Below are positions 10,260 to 24,954 of a stretch of DNA of 48,942 nucleotides, piece after piece. Within the stretch, counting starts at the first letter, position 1. Every line of letters starts with the position of its first letter. Both the position numbers and the translations under genes were made by a program. Under the pieces are notes generated by a model. The model worked only from the letters and a program-made list of their open reading frames with translations. It had not been told where the DNA came from and did no database searches. This DNA comes from Bacteroides sp. SM23_62_1 (lineage in GTDB: Bacteria; Bacteroidota; Bacteroidia; Bacteroidales; SM23-62): positions 1 through 48,942 of the forward strand of contig LJUQ01000004.1 of NCBI GenBank assembly GCA_001304505.1, read 5' to 3'.

Positions 10260-10305
10260 AAATTTGTTTAAAGCCTTCGTGCATTCAAATTTTTATGCAA
10301 TTTTC

Positions 10306-13134
10306 ATGCCAGCAAGAGTCAAAAATACAAAAAAAAATATTTATATCAAAGGTGCCAGGGTTCATAATCTTAAAAATATAGATGTTCAGATACCCAGAAA
10401 TAAACTCGTAGTCATTACCGGTCTGTCGGGTTCAGGGAAATCATCCCTGGCTTTTGACACACTTTATGCAGAGGGTCAGCGTCGTTATGTTGAGAGCCTG
10501 TCGGCCTATGCCAGGCAATTTCTGGGCAGGATTAATAAACCTGATGTTGAATATATTAAAGGTATTCCTCCTGCGATAGCTATTGAACAAAAGGTTAATA
10601 CGCGGAATCCACGATCAACCGTAGGTACTTCAACGGAGATATATGATTACCTGAAACTTCTTTATGCCAGGATTGGGAAGACTTATTCTCCTGTTTCCGG
10701 CAGGAGGGTAAAAAAACATACAGTTACGGATGTTATTAACTATCTCGCCTCACTTGGTGAGGGATCCGGTGTTCTGATTTTAGCTCCATACAGTTTTTCT
10801 ACAAGCAGGGATACAAAAGAGGAAATGGGATTACTTCTTAAGCAGGGTATTACCCGTATTGAAGCGGATGGTGCATTATACCGTTTGGAAGAGTTAATGG
10901 CTGGTTCACTTCCTTTCAATCCTCATAATAAGGTATACATTATCGTTGACAGGATAAAAATTCATCTGGATGAGGATTCTTTGGCACGATATGCCGACTC
11001 GGTGCAGACCAGCTTCAGCCTGGGTAAAGGAGAATGTCTGATTAAAATTATAGATGAAAATAAACCATCCGTCTGCCCGTTCTCCGATAGATTCGAAGCA
11101 GATGGTATCACATTTGATGAACCGGATGTTCATATGTTTAGCTTTAATAATCCTCTGGGTGCATGTCCTTTATGCGAAGGTTATGGCAAAGTAATTGGAA
11201 TCGATGAAGATCTTGTAGTTCCAAATAAAAGCCTTTCGATTTATGAAGATGCCATTATATGCTGGAGAGGTGAGAAAATGAAGAGTTGGAAAGAAAGGCT
11301 GATTCATCATGCTGATATATCCGGCATACCCATTCATAAACCTTTTTATCAGCTCACTCCCGAACAGAAACAACTGATATGGAATGGTAACAGATATTTT
11401 AAAGGCCTGAATAGCTTCTTCAAACATCTTGAAGAAAAGAAATACAAGATTCAGTACAGGGTAATGTTATCCCGGTATCGCGGTAAAACAAATTGTCCTG
11501 AATGCAATGGTACGCGGTTAAAGAAAGAAGCTTCCTATGTAAAGGTTCATAAGAAAGCCATCCAGGAGCTTGTTACCATGCCCGTAGTGGAATTGTATAA
11601 ATTTATTAATAACCTGAATCTGAATGAGAATGAAGTAAAGATTGCAGGAAGGGTTGTAACAGAACTTAAACACAGACTGAAATATCTCGTTGAGGTAGGA
11701 TTGAGTTATCTCACATTAAACAGGTTATCCTCCACTCTTTCAGGAGGCGAATCCCAGCGTATAAATCTTGCTACTTCACTGGGCAGCAGTCTGGTTGGTT
11801 CGCTCTATATTCTGGATGAACCCAGCATTGGACTTCACCCGAGAGATACCCACCTGCTGATTAATGTATTAAAAAATCTTCAGCGACTTGGGAACACTGT
11901 TTTGGTTGTTGAACATGATGAGGAAATCATCAGGTCGGCGGATGAGATTATTGATATCGGTCCGCTGGCAGGATTACAGGGAGGGCGAATCGTTTTTCAG
12001 GGATCTCCCGATAATCTTTTAAAAACCGATCAAAGTCTTACTGCAAAATATTTGAAAGGTGAAGAAAAAATTGAACTTCCTTCACTCAGAAGAAAATGGA
12101 ATAATTATATAATGATCTGTGGTGCAAGGGAAAATAATCTTAAAAACATTGATGTGAAGATTCCTCTGAACATCATGACTGTTATTACCGGAGTGAGTGG
12201 ATCAGGGAAAACATCCCTCGTGAAGAATATTTTATTTCCGGCCTTGGGTAAATTATATAATGGTTATGGTGACAGGTCAGGGGCGCATGATTATCTGGAT
12301 GGTGATATACATTTGCTTGAGGGGATTGAACTTGTTGATCAGAATCCTATTGGTAAATCATCCAGATCCAACCCGGTTACCTATATGAAAGCGTATGATG
12401 AGATCCGCAAGATATATGCTGAACAGCAATTATCAAAAATAAACGGATTTAAACCAGCCCATTTTTCTTTTAATATTGATGGGGGAAGGTGTGAAGAATG
12501 CCAGGGCGAAGGAATTATCAAAGTTGAAATGCAGTTTATGGCAGATATCAGTCTGGTTTGTGAAAGTTGCAAAGGAAGAAGATTCAAGGATGAATTACTG
12601 GAGGTAAAATACTGTGAAAAGAATATTTTCGATTTGCTGAATTTAAGTGTCAGTGAGGCAATTGAGTTTTTCAAACAGTCAGATGGCAGTTTAGAAAGAA
12701 AGATTATTGAGAAGCTCAATCCCCTTGAAAATGTAGGACTTGGTTATATTAAGCTTGGGCAATCTTCCAGTACCCTGAGCGGTGGTGAAAGCCAACGCGT
12801 TAAACTGGCATCTTACCTGGTAAAAGAGCAAAAACAGAAACCAACACTTTTTATATTTGATGAACCAACAACCGGTCTGCATTTCCACGATATCAGGCGT
12901 TTACTCGATGCTTTCAATGCTTTAATTGAGAATGGCCATAGTGTTCTTATTATAGAACATAACCTGGAAATTATAAAATCAGCTGACTGGATCATAGATC
13001 TCGGGCCGGAGGGGGGGATCCAGGGGGGGTACATCGTTTTTGAAGGCAAACCGGAACAGCTGACAAAAGAAAAAAATTCCTTTACCGGCAAATTCCTGTC
13101 AAAAAAAATACAAAAAAAGCCTATTCGCGAATAG
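10306..13134 (+). CDS. uvrA: Excinuclease ABC subunit A
   Basis: UvrA is the damage-recognition ATPase of nucleotide excision repair and loads UvrB on DNA. Two ABC modules are present. Module I has Walker A GLSGSGKSS (residues 39-47) and signature LSGGESQRINLA with Walker B LYILDEPSIGLHPRD. Module II has GVSGSGKTS, then the zinc finger C729-x2-C732 ... C752-x2-C755, then LSGGESQRVKLA and LFIFDEPTTGLHFHD. The first zinc site is incomplete: the position that is normally CxxC reads CPFS (C257), while the partner pair C287-x2-C290 is kept. ATG 10306 gives 942 residues, the usual length; an upstream TTG at 10264 would add 14 atypical residues. Bacteroidota often carry more than one UvrA, so this could be either paralogue. 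Confidence 0.93.
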   Translation: MPARVKNTKKNIYIKGARVHNLKNIDVQIPRNKLVVITGLSGSGKSSLAFDTLYAEGQRRYVESLSAYARQFLGRINKPDVEYIKGIPPAIAIEQKVNTRNPRSTVGTSTEIYDYLKLLYARIGKTYSPVSGRRVKKHTVTDVINYLASLGEGSGVLILAPYSFSTSRDTKEEMGLLLKQGITRIEADGALYRLEELMAGSLPFNPHNKVYIIVDRIKIHLDEDSLARYADSVQTSFSLGKGECLIKIIDENKPSVCPFSDRFEADGITFDEPDVHMFSFNNPLGACPLCEGYGKVIGIDEDLVVPNKSLSIYEDAIICWRGEKMKSWKERLIHHADISGIPIHKPFYQLTPEQKQLIWNGNRYFKGLNSFFKHLEEKKYKIQYRVMLSRYRGKTNCPECNGTRLKKEASYVKVHKKAIQELVTMPVVELYKFINNLNLNENEVKIAGRVVTELKHRLKYLVEVGLSYLTLNRLSSTLSGGESQRINLATSLGSSLVGSLYILDEPSIGLHPRDTHLLINVLKNLQRLGNTVLVVEHDEEIIRSADEIIDIGPLAGLQGGRIVFQGSPDNLLKTDQSLTAKYLKGEEKIELPSLRRKWNNYIMICGARENNLKNIDVKIPLNIMTVITGVSGSGKTSLVKNILFPALGKLYNGYGDRSGAHDYLDGDIHLLEGIELVDQNPIGKSSRSNPVTYMKAYDEIRKIYAEQQLSKINGFKPAHFSFNIDGGRCEECQGEGIIKVEMQFMADISLVCESCKGRRFKDELLEVKYCEKNIFDLLNLSVSEAIEFFKQSDGSLERKIIEKLNPLENVGLGYIKLGQSSSTLSGGESQRVKLASYLVKEQKQKPTLFIFDEPTTGLHFHDIRRLLDAFNALIENGHSVLIIEHNLEIIKSADWIIDLGPEGGIQGGYIVFEGKPEQLTKEKNSFTGKFLSKKIQKKPIRE

Positions 13135-13141
13135 GCTTTTT
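13114..13141. terminator. Palindromic bidirectional terminator overlapping the uvrA stop
   Basis: A perfect 28-bp palindrome (arms AAAAAGCCTATTCG and its complement) contains the uvrA TAG stop at 13132-13134. The A and T ends give a U-tract on either strand, so it suits both uvrA and the convergent gene ending at 13160. Confidence 0.85.
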
Positions 13142-13159: not shown

Positions 13160-13600
13160 TTATTTTTCTTTAAATCCAAACATGATCGCAACACAACCTC
13201 CGAGTATATCTTCAGGTAAACCTTCTGTTGCAGGAACAAGAATAAATATTTTAAGTTGCTGGCTTGCTTCAAGTCTGAAATCCCAGATTCGTGAATAATC
13301 ATTGGATTTGTTTGTATACAGCACATTCCGGTCTGAATCAATCACCCTGAATTCAATATCCGGCAATTCATCACTACCGCAAACAGAGATCCTGTAATCG
13401 GTATCGGAATAAAAAGTTTTATAAAGCTCGGCTTCCTCACCAATGGTTAACATGGCTGCATGGTAATTTCCGTCATGAATATATGGAGTTAGCTCTACTT
13501 TACAAATTTTCTTTGCGAATCCCTTGCATTGTGCATTTAAGGTAAATGGTACGAATGCAACGGCAGCTATAACGACTATCTTAAGAATTATCCTTTTCAT
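13160..13600 (-). CDS. Small exported protein of unknown function
   Basis: The 146-residue product has a Sec signal peptide (hydrophobic residues 5-20, likely cut after TLNAQ). The mature part of ~120 residues contains four cysteines and a beta-rich pattern (YRISVCGSDELPDIEFRVID, then a DFRLEASQQLKIFILVP stretch). That pattern resembles a small periplasmic binding or carbohydrate-interaction fold, but I recognise no family. It begins 11 bp after the stop of the lipoprotein gene at 13612, so the two almost certainly form one operon and may act together at the cell envelope. Confidence 0.7.
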   Translation of the reverse strand: MKRIILKIVVIAAVAFVPFTLNAQCKGFAKKICKVELTPYIHDGNYHAAMLTIGEEAELYKTFYSDTDYRISVCGSDELPDIEFRVIDSDRNVLYTNKSNDYSRIWDFRLEASQQLKIFILVPATEGLPEDILGGCVAIMFGFKEK

Positions 13601-14787: not shown

Positions 14788-16995
14788 TTAATGTATGGTA
14801 ATTTTGACCGATTTATCATCAAGAATATGACCTATGATGGCTGCGTTTTCGACGCCTGCATCCCGGAGATGATGAAGAAATTTTTCACTTTCTTTTTCAG
14901 GAACTGAAAACAACAGGCCACCTGAAGTCTGGGCATCAGAGAGAATATACTTCTGGTTTTCCGGGAAGCCTTCCTTGAATTGCAGCCATTTCTTATAAAA
15001 TTCCATGTTCTTTTTTGTCCCCCCGGGAAGTAGTCCAAGTCTTGTCAGGTCATTTGTTCCATTCATGATGGGCACTTGGTCATAAAATATTTCAGCCGAT
15101 TTATGGCTGGCTTTAAGCATCTCATACAAATGACCAAGGAGACCAAATCCGGTAATATCCGTACATGCATTTACAGGATAGAAACTGGCTATTTGAGCAG
15201 CTGTTTTATTCAGCTGCTTCATTAGTTCGGTGGCCTTCCGGATAATTGTTTCACTTGCCTGGCCTCTTTTAATTCCTGCACTTATTATACCTGTACCGAT
15301 TGGTTTTGTAAGGATAAGCGCATCTCCCTGCCTGGCATTGCTATTTGTAAGAATTTTGTCCGGATGAGCAACTCCTGTAACAGCCATTCCAAACTTCGGT
15401 TCAATATCTTCGATTGTATGTCCCCCCAGAATATTAATTTCTGCTTCAGCAGCAACTGCTTTAGCACCTTCCAGAATTGTTTCAAGAATTGATAACGGTA
15501 ACCTGTTTACCGGAAATCCAACAATATTTAAAGCAAATAAAGGTTTTCCACCCATAGCATAAATATCACTTAACGCATTGGCAGCGGCAATTGCCCCAAA
15601 ATCATATGCATCATCCACCACAGGAGTAAAAAAGTCGACTGTCTGGATAATGGCAATATCCTCACTTATTTTATATACAGCAGCATCATCAGCGTTTCTT
15701 GCGTCCACAAGTATATCCTTATTTTCAGTCAAAGGCAGACCTGCCAGTATTTGTTCAAGATCATCCGGGCTTATTTTGCAGGCACAGCCCAGACCGTGGG
15801 AGTAATGTGTTAACTTAACTCCTGTTTCCTGTCGTGCCTTTGTGATGGTTGTTTTATCAAGCATAATCCTGGATGCATTTTCAACAATCATTCCGGCAGC
15901 ATTCTCTATATCTTCAAAAGTTGTGTATTTGCCGGTTGAGAAGCGTACGGTTCCCATGGCAATATCAGGATGTACCTGCATGGATTGCAGGACATGGGAG
16001 ACCGTTTGTTTATCTGCATGGCAGGCAGCTCCGGCGGATGCAGCAATCTCAGGCATGGATGAGAGAAGCTGATCTGCTTCTATTCCGGGAAACCCCACAC
16101 TCAATGTATTCGGCAGACAACGGTCAGGATCACCTATCCTGACCACTTCCGGCAAATTACTTTGAATGATATCATACAAATGGTCACGGGTTGTTTTCAT
16201 TTGATCGTAATATGTATCAGCATCCCTTCTTGCTATTTCGCAGGCTTTACCCAAACCAACAATTTCCATCACATTTTCTGTACCGGCTCTCCTGTTTTGC
16301 TCGTGATCTGCACCGTGTATAAGCTTTTCAAGATCGATTCCGGAACGTATATAGAGTGCTCCAATTCCTTTGGGGCCATAAAGTTTATGCCCGGCAAGTG
16401 AAAGCAAATCAACACGAAGCTTCTGAACATCAACGCTAATCTTCCCCGTTGTTTGAGCAGCATCAGTATGAAAGAATATTTTTCGCGACCTGGCAAGTTC
16501 TGCTATCTGTTCAACTGGCTGTATAGTACCTGTCTCATTGTTTGCATGCATGATTGTTATCAGGATGGTTCCTTTACGGATGGATTTCTCAAGCCGCTCT
16601 AAATCAATAATCCCGAAAGTATCTACAGGAACATATGTGACTGCATACCCATACTTTTCAAGGTATGAACATACATTCAGGACAGCCGGATGCTCGATTG
16701 CTGATGTAATAATATGGTTCCCTTTATCACGAAGTGCATAAGCAATCCCTTTGATGGCATAATTATTCGACTCTGTACCACCACTGGTAAACACAATCTC
16801 ATCATGGTTGCAGTTTAGCAGCAATGCAATTTTTTCTCTTGCTGACTCAACTGCTTTTCTTGCCTCAAAGCCATACTGATGGGAACTTGAAGGATTACCA
16901 AAATGACCAAACAAGTATGGTTGCATAGCTGCTGCCACTTCAGGATCTACAGGAGTGGTGGCATTATAATCGAGATAAATTGTTTTTTTATCCAC
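14788..16995 (-). CDS. selD: Fusion of cysteine desulfurase (NifS-like) and selenide, water dikinase (SelD)
   Basis: The N-terminal ~380 residues are a group I/NifS-like PLP enzyme: YLDYNATTPVD at the start, HANNETG, TDAAQ, the PLP lysine in AGHKLYGPKG (K204) and the persulfide Cys in ASAGAACHAD (C325). The C-terminal ~340 residues are a complete SelD: THYSHGLGCACK with C404, C406 and K407 matching catalytic C17, C19 and K20 of E. coli SelD, then DDAAVY, TVDFFTP, LGGHTIE, TDITGFGLLGH and DAQTSGGLL. SelD makes selenophosphate; a desulfurase can release selenium from selenocysteine, so the fusion links donor and user. Start: GTG 16995 puts the conserved block at residue 5; TTG 17025 is the alternative. 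No selA, selB or selU is in the window. Confidence 0.93.
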   Translation of the reverse strand: MDKKTIYLDYNATTPVDPEVAAAMQPYLFGHFGNPSSSHQYGFEARKAVESAREKIALLLNCNHDEIVFTSGGTESNNYAIKGIAYALRDKGNHIITSAIEHPAVLNVCSYLEKYGYAVTYVPVDTFGIIDLERLEKSIRKGTILITIMHANNETGTIQPVEQIAELARSRKIFFHTDAAQTTGKISVDVQKLRVDLLSLAGHKLYGPKGIGALYIRSGIDLEKLIHGADHEQNRRAGTENVMEIVGLGKACEIARRDADTYYDQMKTTRDHLYDIIQSNLPEVVRIGDPDRCLPNTLSVGFPGIEADQLLSSMPEIAASAGAACHADKQTVSHVLQSMQVHPDIAMGTVRFSTGKYTTFEDIENAAGMIVENASRIMLDKTTITKARQETGVKLTHYSHGLGCACKISPDDLEQILAGLPLTENKDILVDARNADDAAVYKISEDIAIIQTVDFFTPVVDDAYDFGAIAAANALSDIYAMGGKPLFALNIVGFPVNRLPLSILETILEGAKAVAAEAEINILGGHTIEDIEPKFGMAVTGVAHPDKILTNSNARQGDALILTKPIGTGIISAGIKRGQASETIIRKATELMKQLNKTAAQIASFYPVNACTDITGFGLLGHLYEMLKASHKSAEIFYDQVPIMNGTNDLTRLGLLPGGTKKNMEFYKKWLQFKEGFPENQKYILSDAQTSGGLLFSVPEKESEKFLHHLRDAGVENAAIIGHILDDKSVKITIH

Positions 16996-17123
16996 AGATA
17001 ACAGGATATGATGGCAAATAATCAATATAATCCTGCAATGATATCTTCAAACAATGCAGTATTGTGTACAGATCTTTAACAGGTCAATTTAGATGGTTTG
17101 TTTATCCAATGGATATGAAACGG

Positions 17124-18008
17124 TTAAAAATTCATCATCTTATCGGTCAGATAAGGCTCGTACCTTGCGGCAATCTCATCAGTCCATCCAATCAGGTATT
17201 TTGTATACTCACTGATTTCAAGATCCCAGATATTTTTCCCGTAAGGATCCTGCATGATCTCATCTGGAAATTCATTCTGAAGAAAGCGTATCTTTTTTTC
17301 ATTTTTCCTGAAAAGAGTAGGATACATATCGGCTGCACCATACAGATGAAGGAAATTATGTGCAATTTCAGTCGGGTACTTATAGCTGACAACGGCAAAT
17401 TCTACGTCATCCGTGTTCATGGTATTCATCTGTACCGAGATATCAGATTTATAGTAATTATTAAGCAAAAATATGAGGGCGACACTTTCAACATTATTCT
17501 GATCCCGTAGATATGCAACTAGTCTTTCTTTATTTCTGGGATTTTTAATTTCAGGAATACCCTCTTTTTCATAAATAGGCATGGAACTACCTGCAATTCT
17601 GGCTATACCATCAGCCCATTTATTCATGAGTTCCCCGCCCTTCCTTATGCTGGGTTCAGTTACAGAATTGAGAATACTTCCTGAAGGTAGATTTTTCGTA
17701 ATGGTTGTATATTCTTGTCCAATATAAAAGTCGGCGATAATATTAAGTACAATATCATTTTCTTTTGCCTGCATGTGAAGCCATTGTATGGCCACTCTTA
17801 CAGAATCAATGGTCGATTGGATATCATATTCTGTCCAGGGCGAAGTCTCCCTGCTGTCAATAAATGTAAAATATAGCAGTACGTCCCCTTTAAGATCCTT
17901 GCAGACGTTGGTGTATCTTCCTTTTCTGTAATCCAGCCTTTCCAGCGAATAATTCGAGGGGATTATTGTCAATATTATTGGAAAAATTAGTAGTGCGATT
18001 ATTTTCAT
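17124..18008 (-). CDS. Exported protein with a degenerate metzincin-like motif
   Basis: The 294-residue protein starts with a hydrophobic export signal (residues 2-19). Near residue 217 it reads HNFLHLYGAAD, which has the spacing of the zinc-protease motif HExxHxxGxxD: H217, H221, G224 and D227 are present but the catalytic Glu is Asn (N218). A metal could still bind, but normal peptidase chemistry would be lost. The preceding segment (SVQMNTMNTDDVEFAVVSY, about 191-209) would be the usual edge strand of such a fold. I infer a catalytically dead or altered relative of a metallopeptidase; no family name is certain. It lies downstream of nth on the same strand (90-bp gap). Confidence 0.65.
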   Translation of the reverse strand: MKIIALLIFPIILTIIPSNYSLERLDYRKGRYTNVCKDLKGDVLLYFTFIDSRETSPWTEYDIQSTIDSVRVAIQWLHMQAKENDIVLNIIADFYIGQEYTTITKNLPSGSILNSVTEPSIRKGGELMNKWADGIARIAGSSMPIYEKEGIPEIKNPRNKERLVAYLRDQNNVESVALIFLLNNYYKSDISVQMNTMNTDDVEFAVVSYKYPTEIAHNFLHLYGAADMYPTLFRKNEKKIRFLQNEFPDEIMQDPYGKNIWDLEISEYTKYLIGWTDEIAARYEPYLTDKMMNF

Positions 18009-18098: not shown

Positions 18099-18773
18099 TT
18101 ATTTCTTGTGTAATTTATTGTTATAATATTTACAGATACCGGTCAATCCGCATTCTTCACATTTTGGTTTTCTTGAAATACAGGTATACCTGCCATGAAG
18201 GATCAGCCAGTGGTGGGTTCTGGAGATCAGATCCACAGGAAGATATTTGACCAGTTGCCTCTCTGCCTGTAAGGGGGTTCTGGCTCCGGATGTTAAACCA
18301 AGACGTGATGAAACCCTGAAAACATGAGTGTCAACAGGCATTACAGGTATCTTATACAGGACTGCTGCGATCACATTAGCTGACTTTCTTCCAACACCGG
18401 GCAACTTTTGCAACAGGTTAACATCTTCAGGAACCTTATTATGAAAATCGTTAATGAGCACCCTGGCCATTCCGATCAGGTGTTTGGACTTATTATTCGG
18501 ATAAGAGCAGCTTCTTATGATTGACAGAACTTCTTCATGGGAGGCTGAAGCAAGCTTGTTGGCATCCGGAAACCGGCTAAAAAAATCAGGTGTGATGATA
18601 TTGACCCGTTTATCAGTGCATTGCGCTGATAAAATCACAGCAACAATAAGCTCATAAGGGTTTTTATAATGAAGCTCCGTATCCGGTTCAGGAAGAGTTT
18701 TCCTGAAATATTCAATGACAGCAGTAAATCTTTCCTTCCTGGTTACCTTTATTATTTGATCTTTTTTTTGCAT
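18099..18773 (-). CDS. nth: Endonuclease III
   Basis: This DNA glycosylase/AP lyase removes oxidised pyrimidines in base excision repair. The helix-hairpin-helix LLQKLPGVGRKSANVIAAV (about residues 118-136) contains the catalytic lysine, and PVDTHVFRVSSRLGL (about 145-159) holds the catalytic aspartate. The C-terminal cysteines have the exact C-x6-C-x2-C-x5-C spacing of the [4Fe-4S] loop (near residues 197-213). The length of 224 residues is near the usual 210-220. Its ATG at 18773 overlaps the -33 box of the divergent pheA control region, so initiation of the two transcripts may interfere. Confidence 0.95.
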   Translation of the reverse strand: MQKKDQIIKVTRKERFTAVIEYFRKTLPEPDTELHYKNPYELIVAVILSAQCTDKRVNIITPDFFSRFPDANKLASASHEEVLSIIRSCSYPNNKSKHLIGMARVLINDFHNKVPEDVNLLQKLPGVGRKSANVIAAVLYKIPVMPVDTHVFRVSSRLGLTSGARTPLQAERQLVKYLPVDLISRTHHWLILHGRYTCISRKPKCEECGLTGICKYYNNKLHKK

Positions 18774-18798
18774 AAATCAAAAAGAATGAGTAGGTTTG
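18767..18798 (+). promoter_or_regulatory. Consensus Bacteroidetes promoter driving the pheA leader
   Basis: TTTG at 18767-18770, a 20-base spacer and TAGGTTTG at 18791-18798 match the Bacteroidetes primary sigma consensus TTTG-N19-21-TAnnTTTG exactly. The predicted transcript begins near 18804, about ten bases before the first leader ORF. It is the best promoter I find in the window. Confidence 0.8.
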
Positions 18799-18814
18799 TT
18801 CAATAATAATGAAC

Positions 18815-18859
18815 ATGTATTTCTTTAAAACATATTACTTTTTTCAGGTTCGACAATAA
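18815..18859 (+). CDS. Leader peptide 1 (Phe/Tyr-rich) of the pheA attenuator
   Basis: The 14-codon ORF reads MYFFKTYYFFQVRQ then TAA; seven of its 14 residues are Phe or Tyr. It begins about 11 bases after the predicted transcript start. The aromatic run ends at 18844. Sixteen bases later GGGAC (18860-18864) can pair with GTCCC (18894-18898), the left arm of the following terminator. Known leader-peptide attenuation works this way: a ribosome stalled at Phe/Tyr codons leaves that segment free, while one at the stop covers it. The shared YYFFQ with leader 2 suggests duplication. Translation is inferred, not shown. Confidence 0.7.
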   Translation: MYFFKTYYFFQVRQ

Positions 18860-18890
18860 GGGACAATTCAATAATATGGAATAAAAATGA

Positions 18891-18920
18891 AAAGTCCCGA
18901 AATTTCGGGATTTTTTTTTA
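18891..18920 (+). terminator. Attenuator terminator 1
   Basis: A perfect 16-base palindrome (TCCCGAAATTTCGGGA, 18895-18910) extended by A-U pairs is followed by nine T residues. No + strand gene precedes it closer than uvrA (ending 13134), so it is unlikely to be an ordinary gene-end terminator. Its place between leader ORF 1 and leader ORF 2 argues for a regulated terminator. Confidence 0.8.
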
Positions 18921-18926
18921 GTCATA

Positions 18927-19028
18927 ATGATGAGAGTAAAAACCAAATATACCGGGAATTTCAGCTTCTTTTTCTTTTATTATTATTTCTTTCAGCTATC
19001 TGAGAGCCCGGGTGCATTGTATGGATAA
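18927..19028 (+). CDS. Leader peptide 2 (Phe/Tyr-rich) of the pheA attenuator
   Basis: A 33-codon ORF starts with two ATG codons and contains the run FSFFFFYYYFFQ (codons 12-23), then ends at TAA 19026-19028. Twelve residues are aromatic. It starts seven bases after the T-tract of terminator 1, leaving no room for a separate promoter, so both leaders should lie on one RNA. A ribosome stalled on the run at 18960-18992 would leave GCCCGGG (19006-19012) free; a ribosome at the stop would mask it. This is the classical geometry of pheA-type attenuation. Confidence 0.82.
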   Translation: MMRVKTKYTGNFSFFFFYYYFFQLSESPGALYG

Positions 19029-19080
19029 GTAGGTTATGCATAAAGATCAAGATCCCGGGCAAATGTCCGGGATTTTTTTT
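19006..19080 (+). promoter_or_regulatory. Attenuator 2: antiterminator and terminator before pheA
   Basis: The terminator stem is ATCCCGG (19052-19058) with CCGGGAT (19067-19073), extended by two inner pairs and followed by eight T. Its left arm overlaps CCCGGGC (19054-19060), which is perfectly complementary to GCCCGGG at 19006-19012 inside leader ORF 2. The two folds exclude each other, so ribosome position in the leader can decide termination. The terminator ends 17 bases before the pheA ATG. Confidence 0.82.
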
Positions 19081-19097
19081 ATAATATCTTTTACACT

Positions 19098-19940
19098 ATG
19101 GTACCAAAGAAGATTGTGATTCAGGGCGGCTATGGAGCATTTCATGAAATCGCTGCAAACTACTTTTTTGAAGGTGAACAGATTGAAATATTGCCAAGAA
19201 ATACCTTCAAAGATGTTATGAAGTCTTTGAAAAAGAATAATGCTGATTTCGGCATTATGGCCATCGAGAATTCTCTGGCAGGAAGTATTTTGCCAAACTA
19301 CAACCTTCTTCAGGATTCTACAATGAAGATTATAGGCGAAATATATCTCAGGATCCGACAGAATCTTGTTGCACTTCCAGGACAACAAATCAAAGATATA
19401 TCAGAAGTCTATTCTCATCCCATGGCCATCCTCCAATGCCAGAATTTTTTTGATGAATACCCAAATATCCGGGTCATCGAAAGCATGGATACAGCATTGA
19501 GTGCAAAAGAGATACGTGACAATGAAATGTATGGGGTAGGTGCAATTGCAAGTACACTTGCTGCTGAAAAGTATCAACTTGAAATTATCGCGGCAGGGAT
19601 TGAGACAAACAAAATGAATTATACCAGGTTTTTAATTATTGGTGAAAATAACCACAAAGATATGGCACCGGGTTCGGTCAATAAGGCCTCCATACACTTT
19701 GCACTGGCACATAAGATTGGAAGCCTGTCCAAAATTCTGTCAATTCTGTCTTTCTATAATATTAATCTCTCAAAAATACAATCCATGCCCATTATTGGTC
19801 GTGATTGGGAATATCAATTTTATGTGGATGTTGAATTTGAAGAATATAATTTGTACAAACAATCCCTGGATGCAATTAAACCATTTACCAGCAACCTAGG
19901 TGTCCTCGGGGAATACGAGAAAGGAAGATCAATAATCTGA
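19098..19940 (+). CDS. pheA: Prephenate dehydratase (with ACT domain)
   Basis: It converts prephenate to phenylpyruvate, the Phe branch step. The dehydratase domain (about residues 1-180) has GGYGAFHEIAA at the start, GIMAIENSLAG near 55-65 and the catalytic NYTRF near residues 174-178. A C-terminal ACT domain (about 195-275) begins with HKIGSLSKILSIL, and the allosteric ESRP-like motif reads IQSMP, so Phe feedback may be altered. There is no chorismate mutase domain; that activity is fused to the next enzyme. Length 280 is normal for the monofunctional type. Expression should be controlled by the double attenuator immediately upstream. Confidence 0.94.
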   Translation: MVPKKIVIQGGYGAFHEIAANYFFEGEQIEILPRNTFKDVMKSLKKNNADFGIMAIENSLAGSILPNYNLLQDSTMKIIGEIYLRIRQNLVALPGQQIKDISEVYSHPMAILQCQNFFDEYPNIRVIESMDTALSAKEIRDNEMYGVGAIASTLAAEKYQLEIIAAGIETNKMNYTRFLIIGENNHKDMAPGSVNKASIHFALAHKIGSLSKILSILSFYNINLSKIQSMPIIGRDWEYQFYVDVEFEEYNLYKQSLDAIKPFTSNLGVLGEYEKGRSII

Positions 19941-20425
19941 AGAGTTTCCGGTTCCCGGTTCCTGGTTCAAGGTTAGGTGTGGGTCTGAAGTGATGAACAT
20001 GATTGGAAGAAAATGTTTTGTAATTAATTTAACATCAGTTCGGTATAAAATAGATTATAAAGCACTGAATATGAATAATTTAATTATTGATAACAAATGG
20101 AATAATGGAAAAATGGAATGATGGAATAATGAAATGTATTTAAAAATCGTATATCATTAGAATCCAATATTCCATTATTCCCTTGTTTCATCAATATGCA
20201 TTAGTCTATAAATCATTTAGTTGTTAGTTAATTTATATCAAACTCACGTTAATTTAAAATATAACAACAACTGAAGCACAAAATAAATGGTTAAATTGTT
20301 AAATGGCTGAATTGTAATAAATACCCAACTCGATAAAATAATAAATTAACAATGCAGCAATTCAACAATGTAACAATTATGCTGGAATCACAACGGATTA
20401 AGATATAATTTTAATAATAACAATC
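19941..20425. other. 485-bp non-coding gap inside the aromatic gene block
   Basis: No ORF, RNA gene or promoter is convincing here. It holds a GGTTCCCGGTTCCTGGTTC stretch near 19949, a TGGAAT-type simple repeat at 20096-20136 with a partly inverted copy at about 20163-20181, and an imperfect inverted repeat (20289-20315 with 20349-20378, built of AATTGTTAAATGG-like words). In related Bacteroidota an aminotransferase gene may sit between pheA and the DAHP synthase gene; here none is present. Whether the attenuated transcript crosses this gap is unknown. Confidence 0.6.
20096..20136. repeat. TGGAATGA-type simple repeat
   Basis: A short array of AATGGAATAATGGAAAAATGG-like words, the same family that fills both ends of the window. 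It shows that this repeat is dispersed within the chromosome and not only at contig edges. Confidence 0.75.
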
Positions 20426-21532
20426 ATGGCTGATAAATTGAAATTACTGCCCTTCATCATTGACGGATTAAAGCCTGACAGGCCGATACTTGTTGCAGGG
20501 CCCTGCAGTGCTGAATCGGAAAAACAGGTTATGAATACTGCGAAACAGCTTGCAGCTTCTGGTATTAAGATTTTCAGAGCAGGTATCTGGAAACCCAGGA
20601 CAAGGCCAAATACATTTGAGGGTGTTGGATCCAGAGGGCTTATATGGCTCAAGAAAGTAAAAGAACAGACCGGTATGTTAACCACTACTGAGGTAGCGAA
20701 TGTCAAGCATGTATATGAAGCGCTCAAGTATGGTGTGGATGTGCTCTGGTTAGGTGCCCGTACCACAGCGAATCCCTTTGCTGTTCAGGAAATTGCCGAT
20801 ACACTTAAAGGAATGGATATTCCTGTTCTGGTTAAGAATCCTGTAAATCCTGACCTGGAGCTCTGGATCGGGGCAATGGAAAGGCTGAATAAGGTTGGTA
20901 TTAAGCGAATTGCAGCAATACACCGTGGTTTTTCAACATATGAAAATTCCGGATTCAGAAATAATCCTCACTGGCAGATCCCCATTGAACTAAAAAGACG
21001 GATACCTGAACTACCTATATTGACTGATCCGAGTCATATCTGTGGAAATCGCGAGGGATTATATGAAGTTTCACAGGAAGCTATGGATCTCAATTTCGAG
21101 GGTCTGTTTATTGAATCACATGAAAATCCTGATAAAGCATTAAGTGATTCGCATCAACAGATAACTCCGGAGAATCTGAATAAGCTTCTCAGCCGGCTGG
21201 TTATCAGGGATCCCAACATTGATAACGGTATTTTACTCACGATTGGCGAGCTGAGAGCAAAAATTGATGATCTGGATGATAAAATTATTGATATTTTTGA
21301 TAAGCGAATGGCAATAGCCGAAGAAATCGGACAATATAAAAAAATACATAACATTGCGATCTTACAGGCAAAAAGATGGGACAGTATATTGAGCAAAAGA
21401 CTGAAGATGGGCTTACGGCATGGACTGAGCAATGAGTTTATAGAAAAAGTATTCAAGGCTATCCATCAGGAATCCATAAATCATCAGAACAGGATTATGA
21501 ATATTGATCCAGGGCAAAATGAGAACAATTGA
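20426..21532 (+). CDS. aroF: Bifunctional DAHP synthase (type I beta)-chorismate mutase
   Basis: It catalyses the first step of the shikimate pathway (PEP plus erythrose 4-phosphate) and, through a fused C-terminal domain, chorismate to prephenate. The DAHP synthase domain (about residues 1-265) has VAGPCSAES near 24-32, RAGIWKPRTRPNTFEG near 51-66, GARTTANPFAVQ, AAIHRGFS, and LTDPSHICGNRE. The AroQ-type chorismate mutase (about 272-355) starts LRAKIDDLDDKIIDIFDKRM, with a second helix pair through AILQAKRWDS. The arrangement is common in Bacteroidota and lets mutase ligands regulate the synthase. It overlaps aroB by 14 bases, so the two are translationally linked. Confidence 0.95.
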   Translation: MADKLKLLPFIIDGLKPDRPILVAGPCSAESEKQVMNTAKQLAASGIKIFRAGIWKPRTRPNTFEGVGSRGLIWLKKVKEQTGMLTTTEVANVKHVYEALKYGVDVLWLGARTTANPFAVQEIADTLKGMDIPVLVKNPVNPDLELWIGAMERLNKVGIKRIAAIHRGFSTYENSGFRNNPHWQIPIELKRRIPELPILTDPSHICGNREGLYEVSQEAMDLNFEGLFIESHENPDKALSDSHQQITPENLNKLLSRLVIRDPNIDNGILLTIGELRAKIDDLDDKIIDIFDKRMAIAEEIGQYKKIHNIAILQAKRWDSILSKRLKMGLRHGLSNEFIEKVFKAIHQESINHQNRIMNIDPGQNENN

Positions 21533-22568
21533 CCTGAAAACACAGCATGATAAGTGCAGAATTATCATTGGAGGCCATCTGAAAGATGCCGGTAAACTCA
21601 TCCCTTCCGGACGGCTTGTAATCATTACCGACCGGAATGTCAAAGAATTATACCATTCTGAATTTCCTGAAGGATTAATCATAGATATTGAACCCGGAGA
21701 AAAAAGTAAGACCCTTGAAATGGCATCGGTGATATACAGGAAATTACTGGATTATGAGCTTGACAGGAAAGATTTTATCCTGGCCATAGGGGGGGGAGTA
21801 GTATGTGATCTGGCAGGTTTCATCGCTTCAACCTATATGCGTGGTGTCCCTTACGGGTTTGTCGCCTCAACTCTGCTTGCCCAGGTCGATGCAAGTATCG
21901 GGGGAAAAAATGGGATTAACCTGATGGGATTTAAAAACATCATAGGAGTTGTCAGGCAACCCGAATTTGTTGTTTGTGACCTGAAAATGCTTACGACACT
22001 GGAAAAGAAGGACTACATTGGTGGTATTGCTGAAGTAATCAAATACGGGGCAATGATGGACAGGGATATGTTTGAATTTTGTGAATCACATATCCAGGAT
22101 ATCCTGGCAATGAAAACAGAAATCCTGGAGGAAGTAGTTTTCAGGTCAGTGAAAAACAAGTGCATCATCGTCGAGGAGGATGAATATGAGACAGGCGCGA
22201 GGATGAAACTGAATTTTGGACATACATTTGCCCATGCCCTGGAAAAAATTACAGGTATAACCCATGGTGAAGCAGTTGCTGTTGGTATGAATCTGGCATC
22301 AGCAGTATCGGTCAAACTGGGATTTCTCAAGGAAGATGATTCATCAAGGTTGAAAACGCTGACTCAGCAAACAGGATTGCCGGTGGCTATGGAAGTTAAT
22401 CCGAATGATTTGTTTCTGGCGATCAGGAAGGATAAGAAAAAAGCAGGGTCAGGAATTCAGCTAATCCTGCTGGAAGGGATTGGCAAATCTCTTGTACACT
22501 TCACAGACATAGATATAATGAAGGAGATACTGAATGATATGTACCGTTATAGCATACAAAAGCTTTGA
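21519..22568 (+). CDS. aroB: 3-Dehydroquinate synthase
   Basis: It cyclises DAHP to 3-dehydroquinate with NAD and a divalent metal. Visible motifs are GGGVVCDLAGFIASTYMRGV (near residues 88-107), the ASTLLAQVDASIGGKNGIN substrate/NAD block (near 112-130), GGIAEVIKYG (near 168), the metal-binding HTFAHALEK (near 240) and HGEAVAVGM (near 250). I chose ATG 21519 (349 residues); a TTG at 21504 would add five unneeded residues. The start lies inside the end of the DAHP synthase gene and the stop lies 35 bases inside aroD, so coupling is tight. Confidence 0.96.
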   Translation: MRTIDLKTQHDKCRIIIGGHLKDAGKLIPSGRLVIITDRNVKELYHSEFPEGLIIDIEPGEKSKTLEMASVIYRKLLDYELDRKDFILAIGGGVVCDLAGFIASTYMRGVPYGFVASTLLAQVDASIGGKNGINLMGFKNIIGVVRQPEFVVCDLKMLTTLEKKDYIGGIAEVIKYGAMMDRDMFEFCESHIQDILAMKTEILEEVVFRSVKNKCIIVEEDEYETGARMKLNFGHTFAHALEKITGITHGEAVAVGMNLASAVSVKLGFLKEDDSSRLKTLTQQTGLPVAMEVNPNDLFLAIRKDKKKAGSGIQLILLEGIGKSLVHFTDIDIMKEILNDMYRYSIQKL

Positions 22569-23178
22569 GGAATGCCGGGAAATTATTTCCCGGGAACAAT
22601 GTGTTGAGTTACGTCTTGACCTTCTGGACCTTACAAAGGAACAGGTAGAGGAGCTGTTTTCATTACCATCCAGAAAAGTAGCGACCTGCCGTCCGGGTCA
22701 TCACTCCGATGAAGATCGCCAGGTATTGCTTGAGACAGCGGTTCGCAACGGAGCCACCTATCTTGATATTGAGCTGGAGATGCCCGGCAGGCTGCAACAA
22801 AATCTTATCAAACTTGCAAAAATACATCAGTGCAAGATCATCGTGTCCTATCATAATCATGATGGTACACCTCCACTTGCGGAACTTAAACGGATAATCG
22901 GAAAATGCAGAAAAGCAGGTGCAGATATTGTGAAAGTTGCCTGCAGGGTAAATAATCAGCATGATCTGGCTAACCTGGTCGGTTTATATGCCGGAGAAAA
23001 GGGAATCATTGCGATTGGAATGGGAAAAGAGGGATTGATATCGAGGTTGGTTGCCCCATTGCTTGGTGCTGAATTTACATATGCTTCTGCCGATGCGACG
23101 AGTGCCACTGCATCCGGACAGCTGAAAAGCGATGAGATGAGAGTGTTTTATGAACAGTATGGTCTCAATATAAATTAA
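22534..23178 (+). CDS. aroD: 3-Dehydroquinate dehydratase, type I
   Basis: This Schiff-base enzyme dehydrates 3-dehydroquinate to 3-dehydroshikimate. The class I residues are present: ELRLD (residues 26-30), the catalytic His in IVSYHNHDGTP near 108, the Schiff-base Lys in ADIVKVACR near 132, and the C-terminal substrate loop around SATASGQL near 191. At 214 residues it is slightly shorter than the E. coli enzyme (252). The ATG at 22534 overlaps aroB by 35 bases and the stop is five bases before aroC, so it belongs to the operon. Confidence 0.94.
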   Translation: MICTVIAYKSFEECREIISREQCVELRLDLLDLTKEQVEELFSLPSRKVATCRPGHHSDEDRQVLLETAVRNGATYLDIELEMPGRLQQNLIKLAKIHQCKIIVSYHNHDGTPPLAELKRIIGKCRKAGADIVKVACRVNNQHDLANLVGLYAGEKGIIAIGMGKEGLISRLVAPLLGAEFTYASADATSATASGQLKSDEMRVFYEQYGLNIN

Positions 23179-23183
23179 TCGTT

Positions 23184-24176
23184 ATGAACAGTTTTGGAAG
23201 AATCCTCAGGACTACGATCCTGGGCGAATCACATGGTCCGGCAGTTAGCATTATCCTGGACGGCTGTCCTGCCGGAATTCCTCTTGACATTGAGGATTTT
23301 TCGGAAGATTTTAATCGTAGGAAAAGTGGTATACCTGGCACAACTCCAAGAACAGAGCCAGATGTGCCGGAGATTATAAGTGGTGTATTTAAGGGTTTTA
23401 CAACAGGTACACCGATTGGGATATTGATAAAAAATGAAGATACACGGTCATCAGATTATTCCGGTGTCACAGAAGTTCCAAGGCCGGGACATGCCGATTT
23501 TGTGGCATTGAAGAAATATGGGGGCTTTGCGGATTTTCGTGGTGGTGGACATTTTTCGGGAAGGCTAACCACAGGACTAGTTGCAGCCGGGGTGATAGCT
23601 AAAAAGATCATCAAACCGGTCCACTGTCAGGCAAACCTTATCGAGGCAGGTGGTAGTACTGATATTAACGCAGCCGTAAACCTGGCAATAGAAGAAAATG
23701 ATTCAATTGGCGGAATCGTGGAATGCAGGATTATGAACGTACCTGTCGGGCTGGGAGAACCTTTCTTCGATTCGGTGGAATCTGTGATGAGTCACCTGGC
23801 ATTTTCAATTCCTGCAGTAAAAGGTATTGAATTCGGATCAGGATTTAAAGCTGCCAGGATGAGAGGGAGTGAACATAATGATCCGCTGATCAGTGCCGAC
23901 GGGAAAACAAAAACCAACCACGCCGGGGGTATCAATGGAGGTATTTCAAATGGAAATGAAATTCTTTTTCGTGTGGCGGTGAAACCTACATCAAGTACAC
24001 CGAGAACCCAGAAAACAATCAATCTCAGAACAGGAAAAATGGTTGATCTGGCTATAGAGGGAAGGCATGATACCTGTATAGCCCTCAGGGTACCGGTTGT
24101 TCTTGAAGCCTGCTCCGCCCTGGTCATAGCTGATTTTATGCTGCTTGAGCAACAAATTGATAAAATCCAAAACTGA
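23184..24176 (+). CDS. aroC: Chorismate synthase
   Basis: It makes chorismate from EPSP using reduced FMN. It begins with the signature GESHGPAVSIILDGCPAG (residues 14-31), then RRKSGIPGTTPRTEPD, TGTPIGILIKNEDTRSSDY, RPGHADF and the FMN-binding RGGGHFSGRLT stretch (near 114-124). The C-terminal block GRHDTCIALRVPVV is present. At 330 residues it is about 20-30 shorter than most AroC, but all catalytic segments remain, so I regard it as functional. It starts 5 bp after aroD and ends 4 bp before tyrA. Confidence 0.94.
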   Translation: MNSFGRILRTTILGESHGPAVSIILDGCPAGIPLDIEDFSEDFNRRKSGIPGTTPRTEPDVPEIISGVFKGFTTGTPIGILIKNEDTRSSDYSGVTEVPRPGHADFVALKKYGGFADFRGGGHFSGRLTTGLVAAGVIAKKIIKPVHCQANLIEAGGSTDINAAVNLAIEENDSIGGIVECRIMNVPVGLGEPFFDSVESVMSHLAFSIPAVKGIEFGSGFKAARMRGSEHNDPLISADGKTKTNHAGGINGGISNGNEILFRVAVKPTSSTPRTQKTINLRTGKMVDLAIEGRHDTCIALRVPVVLEACSALVIADFMLLEQQIDKIQN

Positions 24177-24180
24177 AATC

Positions 24181-24954
24181 ATGAAAATTGCAATTATTGG
24201 AGCCGGGAAAATGGGCTCATGGCTGGTTGAATCACTTTGCCTTGATTATGAAGTAGGTATTTATGACAAGGAGAAACATAAATTAAAATACTTTTTCAAT
24301 ACACACAAATTTCTAAGTCATGAGGAGATCAGGCAATTTAATCCCGACCTGCTTATTAACGCAGTTACACTGAATAATACAATCGCTGTTTTTCAGGAAG
24401 TACAGCCCTTTCTGAAATCTGACTGCATTCTTGCCGATATTACCTCTGTTAAAAATGGCCTCTGGAAGTTTTATAGAAGCTTTGGTATGCGGTTTGTTTC
24501 CACACACCCAATGTTTGGACCTACTTTTGCAAACATCAAGGAATTAGCCAGTGAGAATGCCATTATCATCAAAGAATCAGATGAAGAGGGGAAAGATTTC
24601 TTCAGAAAATTTTATGGTTCATTGAATCTGAACATCTATGAATATACCTTTGAAGAGCACGATCAGACCATCGCATATTCCTTATCAATACCTTTTTCAT
24701 CTTCTCTGGTCTTCGCAGCCTGTATGAAAAAACAGGAGGCTCCGGGCACTACATTCAGGAAACATCTGGATGTAGCCAGAGGTGTTTTATCGGAAGATGA
24801 CTACCTCCTTTCAGAAATTCTTTTCAGTCCATACGCAGCAGAACAGGTTGAGAAGATTAATGCAAAACTTGATTATCTCATAAAAATTATCAGGAACAGA
24901 GACTTTGATGAATTAAAAAGTTTTTTTGAGAAGTTGAGAAAAAATATAGAGTAA
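24181..24954 (+). CDS. tyrA: Prephenate dehydrogenase
   Basis: It oxidatively decarboxylates prephenate to 4-hydroxyphenylpyruvate, the Tyr branch. A Rossmann fold opens with IAIIGAGKMGSW (residues 3-14). The conserved active-site block reads FVSTHPMFGPTF (about 105-116), and a later HDQTIAYSLSIPF (near 160-172) matches the catalytic helix of the family. ATG 24181 gives 257 residues; an upstream TTG within aroC would only add atypical residues. It lacks chorismate mutase and ACT domains. It is the last gene of the block and is followed by two hairpins. Confidence 0.93.
   Translation: MKIAIIGAGKMGSWLVESLCLDYEVGIYDKEKHKLKYFFNTHKFLSHEEIRQFNPDLLINAVTLNNTIAVFQEVQPFLKSDCILADITSVKNGLWKFYRSFGMRFVSTHPMFGPTFANIKELASENAIIIKESDEEGKDFFRKFYGSLNLNIYEYTFEEHDQTIAYSLSIPFSSSLVFAACMKKQEAPGTTFRKHLDVARGVLSEDDYLLSEILFSPYAAEQVEKINAKLDYLIKIIRNRDFDELKSFFEKLRKNIE

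Follow-up and report, generated by a model that had tools for sequence, protein, structure and literature searches.

Attenuation of transcription by leader peptides is a textbook mechanism of the Proteobacteria, in which it is best known, and the pheA, trp, and his leaders of Escherichia coli are ribosome-mediated attenuators of amino-acid operons. Tandem arrangements exist among other leader RNAs, such as the tandem trp T-boxes. For the Bacteroidota, a transcriptome study of Flavobacterium psychrophilum reports hints that leader peptides attenuate amino-acid operons and describes a structured element 5' of pheA that is conserved in other Flavobacteriaceae and has no Rfam match (PMC9723704), and sORFs reminiscent of leader peptides were reported for Bacteroides thetaiotaomicron (PMC7366714). 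The tandem attenuators of the Salmonella mgtCBR leader, which respond to different signals, were called a singular example and were contrasted with metE, which has two terminators (PMC3641672); in B. clausii, metE carries tandem riboswitches (cited in PMC3641672). Our search of the open-licence literature found no description of two leader-peptide attenuators of the same pathway in series.

Here we analysed a stretch of 48,942 nucleotides (the window) from Bacteroides sp. SM23_62_1, a metagenome assembly that is 92% complete and 7% contaminated. Positions 18809-18919 very probably form the upstream member of a pair of ribosome-mediated transcription attenuators in series on one pheA leader RNA, both of which would sense charged tRNA-Phe and tRNA-Tyr. 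As in the E. coli pheA, trp, and his leaders, an ORF with codons for the end product and a 2:3 antiterminator competing with a 3:4 terminator stand before a biosynthetic gene; unlike those leaders, the locus has two complete serial modules, no Shine-Dalgarno sequence, and no evident 1:2 pause hairpin in module 1. The F. psychrophilum element, here compared by description only, belongs to the same gene in the same phylum, and unlike our locus it comes with no mention of a tandem arrangement in the text consulted (PMC9723704). With mgtCBR the locus shares the two short ORFs per leader, which in mgtCBR act independently; whereas these read ATP and proline, both ORFs described here read aromatic codons, each with its own terminator (PMC3641672). 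As in tandem riboswitches and T-boxes, two serial units would sense and terminate, deepening or steepening control, but a translating ribosome would act as the sensor in place of an aptamer or a tRNA-binding RNA. Single attenuators are known, and the recurrent tandem form appears to be new and undescribed.

The Rfam model Phe_leader (RF01859) gave 25.0 bits for module 1 and 21.2 bits for module 2, against a gathering score of 55, and Leu_leader also scored below gathering for the modules. Other weak Rfam matches (rimP, MicC, and so on) were set aside, as they look like generic terminator matches. No T-box match reached gathering level in the window, nor E<=5 over 18760-19110. Two other operons of the same genome, hisG and trpE, were sampled. 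At hisG (L201:876-996, G000:C293) a His leader, MRFSPAYYHHAHHHFGDRE and a stop codon, is followed by the terminator AAAAGGTTTGCAGCATCTGCAAACCTTTT, and at trpE (L202:1337-1438, G000:C225) a Trp leader, MSWWWRNEHPDGT and a stop codon, is followed by the terminator AGAGGCTTACC...GGTAAGCCTTT; both are single modules. At least three operons of this genome seem to be under leader-peptide attenuation, with the double form at pheA.

Parts of the leader between nth and pheA

The + strand of the interval of about 325 nt between the divergent genes nth and pheA carries both attenuator modules (Table 1). The score of pheA against PRK11898 lies just below the curated cut-off of that model. The aro and tyrA genes behind pheA probably form one transcription unit with it and would be gated together with it. 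The 485-nt gap that separates pheA from the DAHP synthase gene (19941-20425) contains short imperfect repeats (GGAATAATGGAA and similar) and is missing in the relative L007, in which the genes almost touch; co-transcription across it is uncertain. To the left, as the sequence-only reading had stated, the nearest upstream + strand gene stops at 13134 and all intervening genes are on the minus strand; a + strand ORF at 17064-17510 overlaps a minus-strand gene and was dismissed as not credible. The minus-strand sequence at 14788-17025 is a single 745-aa ORF, a NifS-SelD fusion in which residues 16-377 match cysteine desulfurase NifS/IscS and residues 404-712 match selenide water dikinase SelD. 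A strong hairpin at 13114-13141, AAAAAGCCTATTCGCGAATAGGCTTTTT, lies between convergent genes at 10264-13134 (+) and 13160-13600 (-) and is probably a two-way terminator common to both.

Table 1. Features of the pheA leader and its neighbours in the window.
Feature	Positions	Strand	Remarks
nth, endonuclease III	18099-18773	-	divergent from pheA
Predicted -33 element TTTG of leader promoter	18767-18770	+	Bacteroidota consensus TTTG/TAnnTTTG (PMC6847099)
Predicted -7 element TAGGTTTG	18791-18798	+	TAnnTTTG consensus (PMC6847099)
Leader ORF 1, MNMYFFKTYYFFQVRQ, stop	18809-18859	+	16 aa; in-frame ATG 18815 alternative (14 aa)
Region 2 of module 1, GGGAC	18860-18864	+	immediately 3' of ORF 1 stop codon
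Terminator 1 (regions 3 and 4) and T tract	about 18889-18919	+	GTCCCG-AAATTT-CGGGAT, then T9
Leader ORF 2, MMRVKTKYTGNFSFFFFYYYFFQLSESPGALYG, stop	18927-19028	+	alternative start 18930
Region 2 of module 2, GCCCGGG	19006-19012	+	inside ORF 2
Terminator 2 and T tract	19049-19080	+	region 3 CCCGGGC 19054-19060; hairpin ATCCCGGGC-AAAT-GTCCGGGAT
pheA, prephenate dehydratase, gated gene	19098-19940	+	PRK11898 match 1.3e-58
DAHP synthase/chorismate mutase, aroB, aroD, aroC, tyrA	20426-24954	+	3' of pheA

The + strand module that had been proposed from the letters, an ORF ending at 18859 followed by GGGAC and a terminator, is present in the sequence with its coordinates confirmed. The -33 element of its predicted promoter falls within the start of nth. 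In Flavobacterium data the -7 element occupies -12 to -5 (PMC6847099), and therefore +1 is expected at about 18803, in agreement with the start near 18804 suggested before. The promoter match alone is weak, since the window holds five TTTG/TAnnTTTG pairs against 3 expected by chance. TAGGTTTG has GG at the site where F. johnsoniae data disfavour G (PMC6847099). The predicted 5'UTR of module 1 is just 6-12 nt long, which counts against the attenuator reading. Both candidate starts of ORF 1 have A at -3, in agreement with the preference reported for Bacteroidota, and the missing Shine-Dalgarno before the leader ORFs is expected because Bacteroidota mRNAs lack such sequences (PMC6847099).

Phe or Tyr account for 7 of the 16 residues of ORF 1, whose TAA stop lies at 18857-18859. 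In terminator 1 the region 3 core GTCCCG spans 18894-18899 (GTCCC, 18894-18898), the region 4 core CGGGAT spans 18906-18911, and the T9 tract spans 18911-18919; the computed folding energy of this hairpin is -14.7 kcal/mol (z = -4.5), and 0/200 shuffles were equally stable. The antiterminator of module 1 had been predicted to be a short one, of five base pairs perhaps with some additional pairing, and module 1 to be the weaker of the two modules, a ranking that the computed energies support. It consists of GGGAC/GTCCC plus TTCA/TGAA and reaches -9.2 kcal/mol, in the weakest 6% of 167 modules, against -22.8 kcal/mol for that of module 2, which is among the strongest 11%. ORF 2 has 12 aromatic residues out of 33, and terminator 2 ends 17 nt 5' of the pheA start.

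Both modules are far beyond chance. Under a strict criterion (an ORF with 6 or more aromatic codons in 8, then a hairpin of -10 kcal/mol or lower and a T tract), none appeared in 3000 dinucleotide-preserving shuffles, for module 1 and module 2 each; when a Phe/Tyr/Trp-rich ORF with hairpin and T tract was sought in shuffles of 18800-18921, the result was 1/3000 with loose and 0/3000 with strict settings.

Predicted pairing of region 2 with region 3 and signs of leader translation

In each module, pairing energies were computed between the left arm of the hairpin and the stretch that separates the hairpin from the last aromatic codon. The mean energy was -14.2 kcal/mol with the module's own left arm, -10.2 kcal/mol with a left arm taken from a different leader, and -6.8 kcal/mol when the own left arm met shuffled sequence; 0/5000 permutations among leaders, which ignore relatedness, were as good as the own-module pairing. 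When the two modules of one leader were made to exchange their region 2, the own pairing was better in 22/22 tandem leaders, in L048/L049 by just 0.2 kcal/mol. Relatedness is corrected only in part, by this swap and by the 9 switches of state counted on the PheA tree below. The two arms also change together across leaders, GTCCC occurring with GGGAC or GGGGC, ATCCC with GGGAT, and CCCGGT with ACCGGG, so that the covariance of GGGAC and GTCCC proposed as a check on the sequence-only reading was borne out.

The median distance from the last aromatic codon to the start of region 2 is 11 nt (quartiles 9-14), and region 2 lies close to the stop codon, a position that would leave it free when a ribosome waits on an aromatic codon and covered when the ribosome is at the stop. 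In folding calculations, in which the ribosome masking distances are assumed values, the antiterminator formed in 167/167 modules with a stalled ribosome versus 21% when the ribosome had reached the stop codon. As computed, antiterminator and terminator compete for region 3, and a ribosome at the stop masks the antiterminator; clustered Phe/Tyr codons, an intrinsic terminator between ORF and gene (by sequence and fold), and pathway genes downstream are likewise found. In the 55 nearest leader pairs, differences at the first, second, and third codon positions numbered 124, 134, and 197 in the ORFs versus 117, 106, and 116 over the 15 nt that follow the stop, a modest third-position excess whose direction is the one expected for translation.

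Distribution in the Bacteroidota

PheA was found in 7/7 genomes of the family, 180/393 of the order, and 107/395 of the class, and 80 named loci were fetched; the family of the window is made up of metagenome genomes labelled 'Bacteroides sp.', e.g., SM23_62, and the relatives compared are mostly metagenome assemblies. At least one module was present in 145/176 non-identical pheA upstream regions of Bacteroidota (one in 123 and two in 22), and the detector gave none in 31. These counts are lower bounds, as modules with short T tracts are overlooked, and by visual reading about 12 of the 31 still carry a module (e.g., L020, L022, L029-L031, L077, and L086). A relaxed detector was left unused for the counts because it fused hairpins with T-rich ORFs. 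Looser criteria applied to 1.28 Mb of strand sequence around the relatives' pheA yielded 60 modules within the pheA leaders being tracked and a further 53 outside them; of these 53, 24 are pheA leaders of duplicate loci, and about 29 remain elsewhere, roughly 0.016 per 700 nt. A chance origin of the modules is ruled out by the shuffles and by this low rate outside pheA leaders.

Within the family, relatives that keep the hairpin and not the leader ORF, named beforehand as evidence against an attenuator, did not turn up, and the opposite was found. Both modules occur in 5/6 relatives (L003, L004, L005, L006, and L007), with a first leader MKRNFEYNYFYFN or close and a second leader MNAGLFAYFYFFFFWVHAGPGSL or close, and the sixth, L002, has the second module only, having lost both the start codon of ORF 1 and terminator 1. 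The first ORF of L002 reads ATAAAAAGG, that of the other family members ATGAAAAGG or close. The core TTTGAATATAACTATTTTTATTTCA of the first leader is identical in L002-L007, third codon positions included, in genomes whose PheA is 72-78% identical to that of the window; a requirement for Phe/Tyr codons would not by itself account for so strict an identity. In the other family members the antiterminator of module 1 is stronger, at -14.8 to -17.2 kcal/mol.

Tandem leaders were also found outside the family, in L041, L048/L049, L060, L062/L111, L105 (Saprospiraceae), L122, L154, L157, L167, L168, L172, L180, and L197, and in cultivated Chitinophaga (C. varians, C. qingshengii, and C. fulva: L107, L109, and L110, with L107 and L110 coming from a different detector run); L105, with a poor T tract in its first terminator, and L157, with modules 149 nt apart, are less certain. 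A quick PheA tree of 116 rows shows at least 9 switches between the single and the tandem state, indicating that the second module was repeatedly gained or lost. This turnover, the loss of module 1 in L002, and the low rank of its antiterminator in the window would all fit a module 1 that is decaying here, with a 5 + 4 bp antiterminator too weak to act, terminator 1 as a constant partial block, and regulation left to module 2. Against such decay, the frame of ORF 1, its aromatic codons, region 2, and terminator 1 are all intact, and region 2 keeps five Watson-Crick pairs with region 3, whereas the pairing with region 4 includes a G-U at that position. We therefore consider a remnant unlikely and prefer a module 1 that still works as an attenuator.

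Two modules, probably in series, before pheA

In tandem leaders ORF 2 often begins 8-25 nt after the first hairpin. A TAnnTTTG motif lies within 60 nt before ORF 1 in 13/22 of them and before ORF 2 in 0/22, with a background of about 7%; with a variable last base the counts become 18/22 and 1/22, with a background of 20%. The motif before module 1 only joins the parts, geometry, co-variation, and recurrence as an in silico observation, and because the -7 element never stands before module 2, the two modules are probably on one transcript, in series. A promoter of its own for module 2 was rejected on the same 0/22. Trp codons occur in 13/22 second leaders versus 3/22 first leaders, counts in which related genomes enter several times.

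It could also be supposed that an independent small transcript, either an sRNA or the mRNA of a micro-ORF, stops at the terminator at 18891-18920 and that pheA has a second promoter behind that terminator. A short RNA ending there follows from either model, and the terminated form would be a stable small RNA. The motif counts before ORF 2 and ORF 1 argue against it, however, and the T tract and the start of ORF 2 lie only 7-10 nt apart in the window, which makes an independent transcript highly improbable beside a first attenuator of the pheA leader. That the hairpin serves a minus-strand RNA, or is a protein-binding DNA palindrome, is scarcely credible: a pattern scan does give a minus-strand match at 18910-18895, but the T9 tract is on the + strand where the minus side has just CTTTTCATTT, to the right there is no minus-strand gene ahead of the operon itself and the nearest begins past tyrA, so that the RNA would cross the whole operon antisense, and the recurrence with ORF and region 2 would be left unexplained; a minus-strand terminator was rejected on the strand of the T tract and the gene layout.

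Under attenuation in series, plentiful charged tRNA-Phe and tRNA-Tyr would let the ribosome reach the stop codon of ORF 1 and cover GGGAC, whereupon GTCCC would pair with CGGGAT and RNA polymerase would stop in the T tract near 18919. If either tRNA were scarce, the ribosome would stall on the upstream Tyr/Phe codons (5' of about 18845) and region 2 would be free to form the antiterminator GGGAC/GTCCC plus TTCA/TGAA, so that the polymerase would continue into module 2, where ORF 2 and its terminator would repeat the same test before pheA. From this arrangement we infer ribosome stalling, termination, the tRNA signal, and a multiplicative output of the two gates, which would be tighter and steeper.

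A tandem form once called singular recurs here before one gene across a phylum. We lean towards regarding these leaders as a recurrent Bacteroidota class, in which aromatic operons have two serial attenuators, each with its own peptide and terminator, that are repeatedly gained and lost and give a steeper, multiplicative response, the second module possibly adding Trp. If the two gates multiply, the response would be steeper than that of a single attenuator. Natural pairs of single and double leaders exist (L002 vs. L003-L007; L051/L059 vs. L062/L111; L173 and L175 vs. L168/L172/L180), and this change in module number makes it testable what a second serial attenuator adds to the control of the operon, be it greater depth, a steeper response, or sensitivity to another amino acid.
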